NCBI GenBank assembly: GCA_021806685.1
Contig: JAJZQU010000006.1
Coordinates: forward strand, 1-36,697
DNA from: a bacterium
GTDB taxonomy: Bacteria; Patescibacteriota; Patescibacteriia; 2-12-FULL-60-25
Length of the DNA stretch: 36,697 nt
Direction of reading: 5' to 3'
Shown: positions 1,763 through 7,633 of the stretch, in pieces
How positions within the stretch are numbered: position 1 is the stretch's first letter
Layout: every line of letters begins with the position of its first letter
Notes under the pieces: model-generated
Seen by the model: the letters and a program-made list of their open reading frames with translations, nothing else
The model's database searches: none
What the model was told of the DNA's origin: nothing
Program-made: the position numbers and the translations under genes

Positions 1763-3304
1763 TTAAACTTCAAACCCTATGCTCTTTAAATTTTGCTTTA
1801 TTTGCGCCTCCAGCTCCTTTGATTTTTCAAACTGCCCTGATAATTCCTTGGTCAATTTTGCCATCTTTTCCTCAAACACTTCGTCATCCTCTTCCACATA
1901 ATCAGACCCGACGTAACGCCCGGGCGTGAGGACAAAGCCGTTCTTTTCAACTTCAGTGATCTTGGCGGCTTTGCAAAAGCCCTTTACATCTTCGTATTTG
2001 CAATCTTTAGTGCGCCAACAGTGATAAGTCTCTGAAATTTTCTTGAGATCTTCGTCAGTCAGCTCGCAATTTTTGCGCGAAACCATGGTGCCCATCTTAC
2101 GGGCGTCAATAAACAAGATCTCATCGTGACGGTCGCGGAATTTGTGATCGTGTCTGTCGCGCGACACGAACCAAAGGCAAGCCGGTATTTGAGTTGTATA
2201 AAATAATTGCGATGGCAACGCGACGATACAATCAACCAAGCCATTCTCGATAAAGTTCTTTCTGATCACGCCTTCTCCGCTTGTATTCGATGAAAGAGAG
2301 CCATTAGCCAAAACAAAACCCGCAATACCAGCAGGTGAAAGATGATGGATCATGTGCTGGATCCAGGCATAGTTAGCGTTGCCCGCCGGTGGCACGCCAT
2401 ATTTCCAGCGCGCATCATCGCGCAAGCGCTCGCCGCCCCAATCACTGATATTAAATGGTGGATTGGCCAAAATAAAATCAGCTTTAAGATCTTTATGCTG
2501 ATCATTATGGAAACTATCCGCCCACTGCTGGCCAATATTGCCCTCAATGCCGCGGATGGCCAGATTCATCTTGCATAAACGCCAGGTTGTAGGGTTAAGT
2601 TCCTGGCCATAGATTGAAAGATCATGTTTGCTCCCGCCGTGGGATTCAATGAACTTTTCACTCTGGACAAACATGCCCCCGCTGCCGCAACATGGGTCAT
2701 AAACACGGCCCTTGTAAGGTTGGAGCATCTCAACCAAAAGCTTAACCACGGATTGCGGAGTAAAAAACTCACCGCCGCCTTTACCTTCGGCCGATGCGAA
2801 ACGACCCAAAAAGTATTCGTAAACGCGACCAAGAATATCCTTGCTCTTGCTCTCTTTGTCGCCGAGACCGATACTGCTCATCAAATCAATCAATTCTCCT
2901 AGCCTCACCTTATCCAAATCCGGCCTGGCATAATTTTTTGGTAAAACTCCTTTTAAGCTTGGATTATCTTTTTCAATCAAATGCATGGCATCATCCACCA
3001 TCTTTCCAATCTCGGGCTTTTTGGCATTTGATTTTAGATATTCCCAACGTGCTTCTTTGGGCACCCAAAACACATTTTCTCCGGCATAGACATCCCTGTC
3101 CTCTTCTTGCCCTTCGTAATGCTCTGGATCAACCAGAATCTGACGGTAAATTTCCTCGAACGAATCAGAGATATATTTAAGAAAAATCAAGCCCAGCACA
3201 ACATGCTTGTATTCGGCCGGATCCATGTTGTTACGCATCTTATCTGCCGCAGACCAGAGCTTTTCTTCAAAGCCGATAACGGCTTTATTATTTTGTTTAG
3301 GCAT
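1763..3304 (-). CDS. hsdM: Type I restriction-modification DNA methyltransferase subunit HsdM
   Basis: A 513-aa N6-adenine DNA methyltransferase. The N-terminal HsdM helical domain (about residues 8-130) is followed by the SAM-binding motif DPCCGSGG (residues 203-210) and the catalytic NPPF motif (residues 281-284). The length is normal for the family. With HsdS it methylates adenine in the recognition sequence; with HsdR, which is not in this window, it would form the restriction complex. It is the first gene of a minus-strand operon running off the left edge. A GGGAAG sequence about 9 bases upstream of the ATG could serve as ribosome binding site. Confidence 0.95.
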
Positions 3305-3353: not shown

Positions 3354-3389
3354 AAAAAAAAACACCCGCCCAATTAGCTTTGAGCGGGT
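3354..3389 (-). terminator. Intrinsic terminator of the MFS gene
   Basis: The inverted repeat ACCCGC/GCGGGT (3364-3369 and 3384-3389) is followed on the minus strand by a run of nine T. The distal arm overlaps the last codons of the MFS gene. Confidence 0.75.
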
Positions 3390-4618
3390 AGAGAGCCTCG
3401 CTTGATCTTGATCTCTGACAAGAGCGAGCGCGGGCGGAAGAGGAAGAGGGCCAAGATGCAGAGCACGAGCAGAGCGCCGCAGACGGTCCAGATGCTGACG
3501 ATCTTGGATTCGCTGTCGGGGATGCCGCGCGTAAAGAACCAGACGCTGGCCAAGACGGTCATGTTGCCCATGCGACCAAGGAAGGAATGGAGTGAGCCGT
3601 AAGTGGCGCGATAGCCGCTCTCGATACGCCGCTGGACAAAGACGTCGGCTAAAGGCACGTAAGCTCCCCGGCCAATCTCGTGGATGACGGTGATAGCCAA
3701 CGGACAAGTGAGACCAGGGAAGTGACCGACAAAAGTCAGGCCAAGCCCCGCTAGGCCGAGCATGCCCAGCATGGCAGCAGCTTCGCGGCCGCGTGAGAAC
3801 TTGAGGCGGCGGACGATAACGGCAGACAAGGCGCATGATCCATAGAGCGGGATCCAGATCCAGCTGAGAGAGTGTCCGTGCAAACGCGGCTCGAAGAACT
3901 GGTTCCAGAAATGATTGAACGGATTTATGAAACCCAGCGTCATGGCCGCGAGCACGACCCAGAGCAAACCGGAGTTTAGCTTGAGCGCCTTGAAGCTGGC
4001 TTTGAGAGCCTGCATTTCCGTCAAGCGGTAGGCCGGCTCGCCTTGCGTGCCCATGCAACGGTAGGCCGCCCCAAAGGCGAAAAGCAGCGCCGATGCGCTC
4101 AAGACCCATGTCATTCGAAAACCGAAAGCCTGGCTCATCAAGTCGCCTGCCACTCCGCCGATGAGCATGGCCGCCGCCGACCAAACCGTAGCCGAGGCAT
4201 AAACATTTTTAAGCGACTTAACCTCATCACGCGCGGACAAGGCATCCGTCAGCCAGGCTTGCTCAGCGCCAGATAAAAAAGCCAGCGCCACGCCGATCAT
4301 GACTTCGGCTGCCAAAGCCGACCAAAAACCTTGAGCCAGCGAGTATGACAGCACGGAGATGAACATCGTTAACATGCCAACCTTAATCGACCAGGCTCGG
4401 CTCCGTCCGTCGGCCAACATGCCGGTGGGCAACTCAGAGAGGATCAGGGCCAACCAAAACAATGAATTCAAGAGGGCGATCCTGTCCTGGCTGACGCCGA
4501 TCTGCTTGAGGAACAAAGAATAGATCGTGGCATGGCAACCCATGCCAAGCGAACGCGAGGCCGACACAAATTTGTAGATGGTCGCCGGGTGCAAGTTATT
4601 CAATTTTTCAAAGAACAT
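3374..4618 (-). CDS. Major facilitator superfamily (MFS) transporter
   Basis: A 414-aa integral membrane protein with about 12 hydrophobic segments in the usual 6+6 MFS layout. The loop after the second segment has the MFS motif-A-like stretch PTGMLADGRSRAWS, and SGAEQAWLTDA follows in the fourth or fifth helix, a pattern seen in drug/solute efflux-type MFS proteins. The substrate cannot be read from sequence. The start at 4618 is chosen because GAGGAGG lies 6 bases upstream; an in-frame start 18 bases further would lie over that site. A terminator-like hairpin ends only about 17 bases before the start codon, so expression probably needs read-through (see the leader entry). It has its own downstream terminator. 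The gene looks more GC-rich than the R-M genes beside it. Confidence 0.9.
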   Translation of the reverse strand: MFFEKLNNLHPATIYKFVSASRSLGMGCHATIYSLFLKQIGVSQDRIALLNSLFWLALILSELPTGMLADGRSRAWSIKVGMLTMFISVLSYSLAQGFWSALAAEVMIGVALAFLSGAEQAWLTDALSARDEVKSLKNVYASATVWSAAAMLIGGVAGDLMSQAFGFRMTWVLSASALLFAFGAAYRCMGTQGEPAYRLTEMQALKASFKALKLNSGLLWVVLAAMTLGFINPFNHFWNQFFEPRLHGHSLSWIWIPLYGSCALSAVIVRRLKFSRGREAAAMLGMLGLAGLGLTFVGHFPGLTCPLAITVIHEIGRGAYVPLADVFVQRRIESGYRATYGSLHSFLGRMGNMTVLASVWFFTRGIPDSESKIVSIWTVCGALLVLCILALFLFRPRSLLSEIKIKRGSLPAQS

Positions 4619-4634
4619 CACAGCCTCCTCACAC

Positions 4635-4660
4635 AAAAAGACCCGGGTCTATTCCCGGGC
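4635..4660 (-). terminator. Leader terminator (possible attenuator) before the MFS gene
   Basis: On the minus strand GCCCGGG (4660-4654) pairs with CCCGGGT (4647-4641), loop of 6 bases, followed by CTTTTTG. It lies between a strong promoter-like sequence and the transporter start codon, with no obvious room for another promoter before the Shine-Dalgarno site. Confidence 0.65.
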
Positions 4661-4683
4661 CTGCTCGAAATCAAATCTATTGT

Positions 4684-4794
4684 TTAGCCAATAAGATTAG
4701 ACTTCACGCATACCCGGGAATTCGTCCACGACAAAATACCCATGGTATCGACGTGGGCGTCGCAGTTGCACTGCGGGTAAAAACAGAAGTTCAT
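4684..4794 (-). CDS. 36-aa upstream ORF, possible leader peptide
   Basis: A small ORF with ATG at 4794, starting about ten bases after the predicted transcription start. The peptide opens MNFCFYPQCNCDAHVD and contains four Cys (residues 4, 9, 11 and 29). There is no obvious Shine-Dalgarno site. It ends 23 bases before the leader terminator, and codons 25-28 overlap the antiterminator strand. I do not recognise it. It could be a regulatory leader peptide, a real Cys-rich micropeptide, or a chance ORF within a structured RNA leader. Confidence 0.35.
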   Translation of the reverse strand: MNFCFYPQCNCDAHVDTMGILSWTNSRVCVKSNLIG

Positions 4795-4810
4795 AATCTT
4801 GTATATTTCT

Positions 4811-4839
4811 TTGATACCATTTGTATTAAAAACTGTCAA
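4811..4839 (-). promoter_or_regulatory. Candidate promoter for the MFS leader
   Basis: A consensus TTGACA (4839-4834), a 17-base spacer and TATCAA (4816-4811), starting immediately after the stop codon of the flavin oxidoreductase gene. The implied transcription start is near 4804. Confidence 0.6.
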
Positions 4840-4840
4840 C

Positions 4841-6796
4841 CTATATCTCCAACCCTGCCATCGCCCCTTCCAGCATGGCATCCGTCACACGACGGGGCTT
4901 GATGGCATCACCCACAACTTTGACTGTCTTGAGGAGGTAACGCAGCTTTTGCGCCAAGCCGTTGTTGGGCACGGCGCCGATGCACATGACAACCGTCTCG
5001 ACTGGCAAATCCTGCTGGCCTTGCTCGCTCCGGACAACCACCTTTTCATCCAAAATCCTCATGACCTGGGTCTTGGTTAAAATATTGACGTTGAGTTTTG
5101 CCAAACGCTCCAACAAAAGGTAACCATCATCCAACGGCGCTTCGGCTGCCACCTTGTCCCCCATCTCAACAATGGTCACCGGATGATTTTTCATTGCCAG
5201 ATATTCTGCTGTTTGCGCACCCATGCAACCTCCGCCCACGACAACCACTTTGCCCTTGGCTTCTGATTTCCCCTCATAAAGATCGCGCGCAATGATGACA
5301 TTAGCCCTTTCAGCCCCAGGGATCCTGGGCCGCAAGGCAGAAGAACCCATAGCCACAATCACTGCATCGAACTTTATTGCGCCAATATCCTCGGGTGACT
5401 TGGGCGGTTCGCGCAAATCATCCATAACAAATTTATGTCCAAGCACGACTTTGACTTTGAGCCGCTTCATCTCGTCGATTAGAAACTCACGCAACAAATT
5501 CCAATCCTGGCGATGCGGAGCCATGCCGGCCGAAGCTAGTTGGCCGCCTAGCTGGTTTTCTTGCTCAAACAAAGTGACCTTATGGCCGCGTTCGGCCGCG
5601 ACTTTGGCTGCGCTCATGCCAGCCGGCCCGGCGCCGATGATGGCCACGCGCTTTTTGATCTTGGCCGGCAAAGCAAACATTGCCTCACGTCCGCAAAGCG
5701 GGTTGACCGTGCACCAAACATCTTGCTGCATGAAAAGCCGCGAGATGCATCCTTGATTGCAAGCCACGCAATGGTTGATGAGCTTGGCTTGGTTGACCTT
5801 GGCTTTATTGGGCCAGTTGGGATCAGCCAAGAGCGAACGGCCAATGGCCACAAAATCAGCTGATTTTGTTTTGATGATTTTCTCGGCCATTTCCGGCGTG
5901 CGGATTTTGGCCACCGTGATCACCGGAATTTTTATTGACTCCTTGACCTCTTTGGCCAGCGGCACCAATACCCCATCTTCAATGGCCATGGGCGGGATCA
6001 TCTTGCCTTGGGCATAAGAAGCATAATTGCCGGATGAGATGTGCAAACCATCTGCCCCGAGCTTTTCCAAATGCTTGGCAATCTGCACAGTATCTTTGAT
6101 GGTCAGTCCGCCTTTGACCCACTCGTCGCCCGACAAACGGACTGTAATAGGAAAATCCGGACCGACAGCTTGCCGCACTGCTTCAAAAACTTCTTTTAAA
6201 AATCGAAAACGTTTTTCCGGCGTGCCGCCATATTCATCCTTACGCTCGTTGGTAAAAGGCGAAAGGAATTGCGTGATTAGATAACCGTGCGCCCCATGGA
6301 TCTCCACAAAATCCAAACCAGCTTTCTTGGCGCGCAAGGCAGCTTTGGCATAAGCCTTGACTAGCTGCTTGATCTCAGCGACTTTGAGCGCACGGGGAGC
6401 TTCTGGCTCAAGCGGGTCTTGGATGGCAGACGGGGCAACGGGTTTTTGGCCTGTTATTGTTGGATTGGTTTGGCGGCCGGCATGATGGAGTTGGATGCCA
6501 ATGGCTGCCTTATTTTCATGAGCCACTTTGGCTAACTTCTTGAGGCCTAAAATACAATTGTCAGAATAGATCCCTAACTGGTTGGCAAATCCCCTGCCTT
6601 CTTGGCTGATAAAACTCGCTTCTAAAATCAACATGCCAACCCCGCCTTGGGCAATACTGGCGATATGGTCAACGTAACGCTTGGTGACCAAGCCTTTAGT
6701 ATCAGCATAATTGCGCACCATGGGCGGCATAGCCAACCGATTCTTGAGCTTCAGCTTGCCAATGCGGCCCGGCGAGAAAAGGGCTTTGTACTTCAT
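4841..6796 (-). CDS. NADH:flavin oxidoreductase, old yellow enzyme / 2,4-dienoyl-CoA reductase type
   Basis: A 651-aa three-part enzyme of the FadH/trimethylamine dehydrogenase family. Residues 1-335 form an FMN-binding TIM barrel with HGAHGYL (168-174). C343, C346, C350 and C362 are spaced C-x2-C-x3-C-x11-C for a [4Fe-4S] cluster. The FAD-binding motif GAGPAG is at 388-393 and a second nucleotide-binding loop GGGCMG at 521-526. Such enzymes pass electrons from NAD(P)H through FAD and the cluster to FMN, reducing activated C=C bonds; the substrate here is unknown. The ATG at 6796 matches the family start (KYKALFSPGRIG). Longer in-frame starts would run over the divergent promoter and the neighbouring gene. 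The implied 5' leader is very short. Confidence 0.93.
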   Translation of the reverse strand: MKYKALFSPGRIGKLKLKNRLAMPPMVRNYADTKGLVTKRYVDHIASIAQGGVGMLILEASFISQEGRGFANQLGIYSDNCILGLKKLAKVAHENKAAIGIQLHHAGRQTNPTITGQKPVAPSAIQDPLEPEAPRALKVAEIKQLVKAYAKAALRAKKAGLDFVEIHGAHGYLITQFLSPFTNERKDEYGGTPEKRFRFLKEVFEAVRQAVGPDFPITVRLSGDEWVKGGLTIKDTVQIAKHLEKLGADGLHISSGNYASYAQGKMIPPMAIEDGVLVPLAKEVKESIKIPVITVAKIRTPEMAEKIIKTKSADFVAIGRSLLADPNWPNKAKVNQAKLINHCVACNQGCISRLFMQQDVWCTVNPLCGREAMFALPAKIKKRVAIIGAGPAGMSAAKVAAERGHKVTLFEQENQLGGQLASAGMAPHRQDWNLLREFLIDEMKRLKVKVVLGHKFVMDDLREPPKSPEDIGAIKFDAVIVAMGSSALRPRIPGAERANVIIARDLYEGKSEAKGKVVVVGGGCMGAQTAEYLAMKNHPVTIVEMGDKVAAEAPLDDGYLLLERLAKLNVNILTKTQVMRILDEKVVVRSEQGQQDLPVETVVMCIGAVPNNGLAQKLRYLLKTVKVVGDAIKPRRVTDAMLEGAMAGLEI

Positions 6797-6808
6797 AGCA
6801 ATATCCAT

Positions 6809-6841
6809 AGTATAGGCACGAGCCTGATCTTTGTCTAAAAT
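6809..6841. promoter_or_regulatory. Interlocked divergent promoters
   Basis: Minus: TAGACA (6837-6832), 17 bases, TATACT (6814-6809). Plus: TAGGCA (6813-6818), 17 bases, TAAAAT (6836-6841). The -35 of each promoter overlaps the -10 of the other, so a single 33-bp segment could serve both genes but not both at once. Read by eye. Confidence 0.55.
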
Positions 6842-6847
6842 AGCTAG

Positions 6848-7633
6848 ATGCATATCGTCTTCTTGGGTACAGGCCCGTCCAGGGCTATTCCGCGCAAAGG
6901 TCATCGTGATGCCCTGTGCCGCGATGCTCGTTCTGGCGGCAAGAGCCGACGTTTGCGTTCCAGCGCACTCATTACTTCAGGCAAGACAACCATCCTTATT
7001 GACTCTGGCCCTGATATTTTGAAACAACTCAAGCAACACAAGCCAAAACAGATTGATGCCGTGTTACTTACCCATGGCCACGAGGATGCTATCGACGGCC
7101 TAAAAGATTTGGACAAGTGGCTGCGGCAACAGCAAATACCGGTCTATACAGATCGGCTTACGGCTCAGCTTTTAACCCACCGTTTTGGCAAATTCAAACA
7201 TCTGTTTTTCTCAAAATTGAAAGATTATTCTCCCTTCAAAATCAAACAAGTCGAGGTCATCCCATTCCCTGTTTTGCACACGCAGGACAAGCGTTTTAAA
7301 ACCTATGGGTATAAATTTGGTTCTTTTTGTTATGCCAGTGACTTCCACGAGTTACCAAAAAGAACAAAAACTTTGCTCAAAGGCCTTAACACCACGATCT
7401 TGGACGGTGCCATGTACCTGGGTGTCAAAATGCCTACCCATATGTCAGCTGATGCCACTGTCAGGCTGGCCTCAGAACTTAAAGCTCGCCAACTAATCCT
7501 AACTCAAAGCGGCCACACTTATCCCCCACATAACCAGGCAGAACTGGCCATCAGGAGATATGCTAAGGCCAATCAACTGGCTTTTCCCAAAAAAATCAGG
7601 TTAGCTTTTGACGGCCTAGAGCTCAAAAACTAA
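6848..7633 (+). CDS. MBL-fold metallo-hydrolase (PhnP/COG1235-like)
   Basis: A 261-aa protein of the metallo-beta-lactamase fold. It opens MHIVFLGTGPSRAIPR and has a Cys-rich-looking early loop, as in PhnP-type phosphodiesterases. The metal-binding motif is HGHEDAIDG (about residues 76-84), followed by HTQ, YASDF and SGHTY segments that would supply the remaining ligands. The sixth motif position is Ala rather than His, a variant also found in the COG1235 group. The likely activity is phosphodiester hydrolysis; the substrate is unknown. The predicted -10 box ends six bases before the ATG, so the transcript is probably leaderless. It is transcribed divergently from the flavin oxidoreductase. 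Confidence 0.85.
   Translation: MHIVFLGTGPSRAIPRKGHRDALCRDARSGGKSRRLRSSALITSGKTTILIDSGPDILKQLKQHKPKQIDAVLLTHGHEDAIDGLKDLDKWLRQQQIPVYTDRLTAQLLTHRFGKFKHLFFSKLKDYSPFKIKQVEVIPFPVLHTQDKRFKTYGYKFGSFCYASDFHELPKRTKTLLKGLNTTILDGAMYLGVKMPTHMSADATVRLASELKARQLILTQSGHTYPPHNQAELAIRRYAKANQLAFPKKIRLAFDGLELKN

Follow-up and report, generated by a model that had tools for sequence, protein, structure and literature searches.

The bmrB leader of the Bacillus subtilis bmrCD ABC transporter contains a short translated ORF, alternative stem-loops and a terminator in front of a drug transporter; read-through follows exposure to ribosome-targeting antibiotics, and without translation of the leader expression is lower and induction is lost (PMC4191407). 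The mef(E)/mel leader likewise acts by transcription attenuation before an MFS efflux pump, via a ribosome stalled on a leader peptide (PMC4335068). In E. coli, the toiL uORF of topAI senses several antibiotic classes and carries segments that pair with the controlled region, and uORFs are known to sense several ribosome-targeting drugs via stalls at different codons (PMC12121999). Leaderless polycysteine sORFs of mycobacteria also serve as short-ORF sensors that attenuate downstream genes (Canestrari et al., cited in PMC9031893). The enteric trp and his attenuators are built on alternative 1:2, 2:3 and 3:4 pairings, and a ribosome stalled at early codons leads to read-through.

Here we analysed a leader in front of an MFS transporter gene in a window of 36,697 nucleotides, the window being the whole stretch of DNA under analysis (GCA_021806685.1, contig JAJZQU010000006.1, positions 1-36,697; GTDB Patescibacteriota, Patescibacteriia, 2-12-FULL-60-25). 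This leader is likely, with a probability of about 0.84, to be a ribosome-mediated transcription attenuator of the trp-like, four-segment type that controls a DHA1-like MFS exporter, although the reading rests on computation alone, without RNA, expression or wet-lab data. By analogy, the putative switch would resemble bmrB and mef(E)/mel in purpose and the trp attenuators in logic. However, it shares no homologous sequence with bmrB, and it combines an MFS target with an ORF that lacks a Shine-Dalgarno sequence (SD) and is often predicted to be leaderless, whereas bmrB has an ABC target, a GTG start, upstream RBS candidates and a terminator inside the leader ORF (PMC4191407). The mef(E)/mel leader differs in its 8-codon Mef(E)L (MTASMRLR), consensus RBS, MRLR macrolide stall motif and TSS 327 bp upstream (PMC4335068); an MRLR-type stall motif is not present in the Patescibacteria leader peptides. 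Control by toiL involves ribosome-site access and Rho-dependent termination, with no intrinsic terminator (PMC12121999), and the mycobacterial sORFs respond to Cys through contiguous Cys codons, whereas no Cys is conserved in the Patescibacteria leaders. Compared with the trp and his attenuators, the present leader has an exporter-like MFS target, no tandem control codons and an SD-less ORF.

Our full-text literature search returned no paper joining Patescibacteria with leader peptides or riboswitch-type regulation, and an earlier note, made from sequence alone, likewise knew of no such switch in these bacteria. As far as the searched literature goes, the switch has probably not been described before in Patescibacteria, and it differs in detail from the known ribosome-mediated attenuators. 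Patescibacteria are mostly uncultured and their regulation is little known; the leader offers a specific, testable system recurring in many families. It is transferable to a laboratory reporter, which could reveal what Patescibacteria cells sense, and its SD-less ORFs bear on translation initiation by the reduced Patescibacteria ribosomes.

The leader and the transporter gene

On the minus strand, the promoter is followed by a 36-codon ORF (4794-4684), a terminator (4662-4639), a Shine-Dalgarno sequence and the MFS ATG (4618). The promoter was read directly as a -35 box TTGACA (4839-4834), the same hexamer as in most relatives, and a -10 box TATCAA with 4/6 consensus matches (4816-4811). The two boxes are 17 nt apart, and the spacing is 16-18 nt in most relatives. 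Transcription is predicted to start at about 4804, which would leave a 5' UTR of ~10 nt without an SD. The leader ORF, MNFCFYPQCNCDAHVDTMGILSWTNSRVCVKSNLIG, runs from the ATG at 4794-4792 to the TAA at 4686-4684 in a conserved geometry, passing through segment A and stopping 21 nt upstream of the terminator.

Segment 1 (TACCCG, codons 6-7, minus strand 4774..4779) is complementary to CGGGTA of segment A; it is weak in this leader (6 bp) and stronger in relatives. Between the two segments, folding places hairpins within the ORF (4723..4775). Segment A (ATTCCCGGGT, 4721-4712, ORF codons 25-28), read directly and supported by covariation, is the 5' arm of the antiterminator and forms 10 pairs, one of them G-U, with segment B (GCCCGGGAAT, 4660-4651). 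Segment B, also supported by covariation, is common to the antiterminator (with A) and the terminator (with C). The folded antiterminator hairpin (4651..4721) has a stem of ~29 pairs over 77 nt with A:B at its base, and its stability of -39.9 kcal/mol (z -7.6) was equalled in 0/200 shuffles. The intrinsic terminator, found by terminator scan and folding, reads AGGCCCGGG-AATAGA-CCCGGGTCT and then TTTTGTG, and its 3' arm is segment C (4662-4639). Its stem (4662-4654/4647-4639) contains 9 pairs, one of them G-U (-19.5 kcal/mol, z -3.6). The two hairpins are mutually exclusive, and the whole leader RNA is more stable than shuffles (z -5.1). The stop codon of the ORF sits at the loop end of the antiterminator hairpin; thus a ribosome completing the ORF has opened the 5' arm of this hairpin. 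A dispersed-repeat reading of the hairpin was ruled out because it occurs in one copy in the genome.

The promoter scan detected no promoter-like site above threshold from the leader promoter to the MFS start, and the Rfam search of the window gave no match at gathering score, cis-regulatory families included. The earlier note had claimed the 36-codon ORF, the position of A in codons 25-28 and A:B pairing over 10 positions, all of which held on direct reading, while its terminator stem of 7 pairs is corrected to the 9 given above.

The regulated gene (3374..4618 on the minus strand, ATG 4618-4616) encodes a 414-aa MFS transporter (PF07690, MFS_1). It is preceded by the Shine-Dalgarno sequence GAGGAGG (4630-4624), and the terminator scan placed its own terminator at 3390-3363. 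The nearest solved structure by sequence is NorA (E 3.5e-8), and the closest folds to the structure model (pLDDT 92) are VMAT (VMAT2), MdfA and NorA. None of the curated resistance cut-offs was reached by the protein. We regard it as likely that the transporter is a DHA1-like MFS protein and a probable drug exporter, drug export and resistance being inferred from fold and sequence similarity. Its minus-strand neighbours in the window are an old-yellow-enzyme/BaiCD-like flavin oxidoreductase gene upstream (4841-6904) and an HsdM-like type I restriction-modification gene downstream (1763-3304). A similar oxidoreductase gene lies upstream of the transporter in one relative (G006), and not in two others (G001 and G002).

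Recurrence and covariation in relatives

Homologues of the MFS protein were sought in family, class and phylum genomes and in GTDB contigs, and 62 distinct leaders of such homologues were extracted and analysed by one script. They come from Candidatus Uhrbacteria and further families of the class, and the named records also include unclassified Parcubacteria/Patescibacteria. Dozens of genomes show the architecture in front of relatives of the pump. Nearly all 62 leaders contain an intrinsic terminator within 230 nt upstream of the transporter. In 60/62 leaders, an ATG mini-ORF with a minimum of 26 codons (counting the stop) crosses A and ends 12-45 nt upstream of B, compared with 6.2±2.4 in dinucleotide shuffles of the same stretches; across relatives the leader ORFs measure 26-54 codons. 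This ORF geometry is shown by computation. Selection on the leader peptide itself is weak, with an N/S ratio of 0.66 in frame versus 0.90 and 0.81 for the two alternative frames. Three leaders (L045, L066 and L070) carry an extra base in A (TTTCCCGGGT); the resulting frameshift brings the ORF to a UAG where A ends. As the ORF still covers A in these cases, translation through A, rather than the C-terminal peptide, seems to matter.

The pairing of A with B is specific to each leader. The cognate A:B score was 24.2 versus 17.7±0.4 when arms were permuted, and 0/10,000 permutations reached the observed value (62 leaders). Similar results were obtained with one leader for each of the 39 arm types (24.1 versus 16.5, z 13.8) and in a test restricted to the class's other families (24.7 versus 15.9, z 10.8). 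The register of A was picked by best match, but the permutations re-sought the best match for each foreign B arm, so the choice of register gives the cognate pair no advantage. Many of the arm types are non-palindromic, and the complementarity is kept despite the changing arm sequences, as in L005 (TTCTCGGGC with GCCCGAGAA), L047 (TTTGCCGAGTTT with GACTCGGCAAA) and, outside the class, L103 (TATCTAACCAAGGCG with CGCCTTGGTTAGATA). Moreover, A:B pairing extends into the terminator loop, at 90-98% for three loop positions in the core set, and hence cannot be explained by terminator pairing alone. The segments and their specific complementarity are in this way shown by computation.

Outside the class, the ORF, terminator and A were all found in seven leaders (L103, L105, L107, L108, L110, L112 and L115), with p<0.1 for A in all seven and p<=0.02 in four. 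No such leader was seen before the more distant phylum homologues L109, L113, L114, L116, L118 and L119, and no convincing segment A in some far relatives (L082, L089, L090 and L111). As a genome-scale control, 800 kb of G001 was scanned and the 39 terminators located before a gene were scored; among them the MFS leader gave the top A:B score, and only one other candidate scored close.

Initiation and ribosome-dependent folding

Only 4/62 leader ORFs have an SD, compared with 56/62 transporter genes. In 31/62 leaders, 8-9 nt separate the end of the best promoter from the AUG, whereas an even spread would give about 5 by our own estimate, based on the 24 scanned offsets; in such leaders transcripts would start at or next to the AUG. 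The predicted 5' UTR is ~10 nt both in the window and in G001, which belongs to the same genus. The SD absence and the promoter spacing are shown by computation, and all start sites are predicted. The leader ORF would thus be translated without an SD and is probably leaderless, or nearly so, in about half of the leaders.

Partition-function folding from the ORF start to A revealed the partner of A upstream. The pairing of A with codons 6-10 amounts to 0.06-0.11 per codon, versus 0.014-0.020 in shuffles (4-7x), and A pairs with little else in this region; the cognate segment 1:A score also exceeds that of permutations (p=0.0002). The region between segment 1 and A folds at a mean z of -1.31 versus shuffles (62 leaders), and a T-rich stretch follows the hairpin region directly before A. 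Together they resemble an RNA polymerase pause signal, a possibility for which they are no more than candidates.

A simulated ribosome was then placed at successive codons, and the probability of B:A pairing, P(B:A), was computed by folding with occlusion. Over the 62 leaders it was 0.05 without a ribosome, 0.28-0.35 with a stall at codons 4-18 and 0.00 with the ribosome at the stop codon. Before C is made, the value with a stall at codons 4-18 rose to 0.75-0.76. For the window leader, P(B:A) was 0.87 without a ribosome, 0.37-0.87 for stalls at codons 3-20 and 0.00 once the ribosome had reached the stop. Therefore, an early stall allows read-through and complete translation forbids it. For more than half of the leaders, equilibrium folding still prefers the terminator when the ribosome stalls early, and read-through in these leaders would need co-transcriptional kinetics. 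A simpler model, in which the untranslated leader is always ON, was contradicted by folding in 57/62 leaders and gave way to the four-segment model.

In the proposed mechanism, transcription would start at or shortly before the AUG of the SD-less, 26-54 codon ORF. When the ORF is translated completely, the ribosome would cover A, B would pair with C and transcription would stop before the transporter. When the ribosome stalls at about codons 4-18, it would cover segment 1 and leave A free; A would then pair with B, no terminator would form and the transporter would be transcribed. For untranslated RNA the model predicts a fate that varies by leader: 1:A pairing would lead to termination in most relatives, while the antiterminator of the window leader is so strong that its RNA should read through. 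Given the segment 1:A pairing, the ribosome must in most relatives start and then stall early. The folding behaviour is shown by computation, whereas function in cells, translation of the leader and the effect of a stall on termination are inferred from folding with an occluding ribosome.

The central claim of the earlier note, ribosome-controlled attenuation with an A:B antiterminator, held on covariation, ORF conservation and folding, and ribosome-position folding supported its proposal that a stall upstream of A gives read-through and full translation gives termination. Its three-segment picture is refined by the fourth segment at about codons 6-10, which pairs with A, and its account of the leader ORF by the lack of an SD and the leaderless or nearly leaderless start. 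It had set beforehand what would refute it, namely no conservation or covariation of A, B and C in relatives, or a separate promoter between the hairpin and the transporter start; the three segments co-vary, the scan gave no second promoter, and the small ORF, whose conservation the note had proposed to check, is conserved.

The stalling signal and rival explanations

The 62 leader peptides differ from one another, but their residues 2-10 are enriched beyond local composition in Asn (0.183 versus 0.096), Tyr, Cys, His and Trp, and 25/62 leaders carry the motif [CWFY][HYQF] within residues 4-9, compared with 6.6 in shuffles and 3/104 ordinary genes. Pairing of segment 1 (TAC with GTA) may account for part of this bias, as may CA-rich starts, which are known to aid leaderless translation (PMC9031893). 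A tandem or conserved amino acid was sought in the 62 peptides and none was found, which argues against a sensor of any single amino acid, Cys included. Cys limitation, which the earlier note had offered beside a drug as the signal, found no support: the window peptide has three Cys codons, and they are not conserved even within the genus. Because the transporter resembles drug antiporters and known uORFs sense several drugs, a translation-inhibiting drug or general translation stress is the most likely candidate, and it remains an unproven inference. A bolder reading, which is possible, would make the leader a widespread Patescibacteria translation-stress sensor whose mRNA starts at the AUG of the sensor ORF, with [CWFY][HYQF] marking a new family of arrest peptides that activates the exporter. 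With an mRNA beginning at the AUG, leaderless initiation itself would load the sensing ribosome.

The rival that survives best, though an unlikely one, keeps the same switch and replaces its signal by limitation of Cys, His, Trp, Tyr, Phe or Asn, with the transporter serving amino-acid or peptide supply. In its favour are the early residue enrichment, the [CWFY][HYQF] excess and a seemingly true His attenuator in the same lineage. However, the MFS leaders, unlike that His leader, have no conserved or tandem residue, the transporter resembles drug antiporters, and the bias is partly accounted for by segment 1 pairing and CA-rich leaderless starts. A ligand-binding riboswitch or protein-binding leader with an incidental short ORF is very unlikely. 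Alternative terminator and antiterminator structures alone would suit it, but there is no Rfam match, no conserved unpaired aptamer-like core was seen, the arms vary freely, and in 60/62 leaders the ORF stays open across A and its stop keeps a nearly constant distance to B. All but excluded is a plain terminator of the upstream oxidoreductase gene, with chance-pairing CCCGGG arms and leaky read-through into the MFS gene: the terminator does follow a same-strand oxidoreductase gene in the window and G006, and A-like pairing comes easily because CCCGGG is self-complementary, but A and B covary across 39 arm types, many not palindromic, the ORF geometry holds in 60/62 leaders, a promoter is present between the upstream gene and the terminator, and G001 has the same leader between flanking genes of the opposite orientation, so that the terminator serves the leader transcript and not an upstream gene.

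A second leader of similar style precedes a gene for an AstE/AspA-like hydrolase (PF24827) and contains short ORFs with tandem His codons. The set comprises L160 (G001 contig C4, gene at 431685), L161, L162, L164, L165, L166 and L168, and the tandem-His ORFs read MRKAKCLYFNHHVLNRLRK, MTTFKQQVHHIADLK, MKKTNLVHHHNTF, MNFQQAQSVHHHTSTTRSRK, MKLNANKLMHHYTFSRG, MKFMSIQNQVHHHGDSARAV and MKNISLYTTHHTRLLG. Inferred from sequence, this leader is likely a histidine-responsive attenuator in Patescibacteria. The tandem His leader was found in 7/12 hydrolase homologues, most of them with a scanned terminator directly before the gene.
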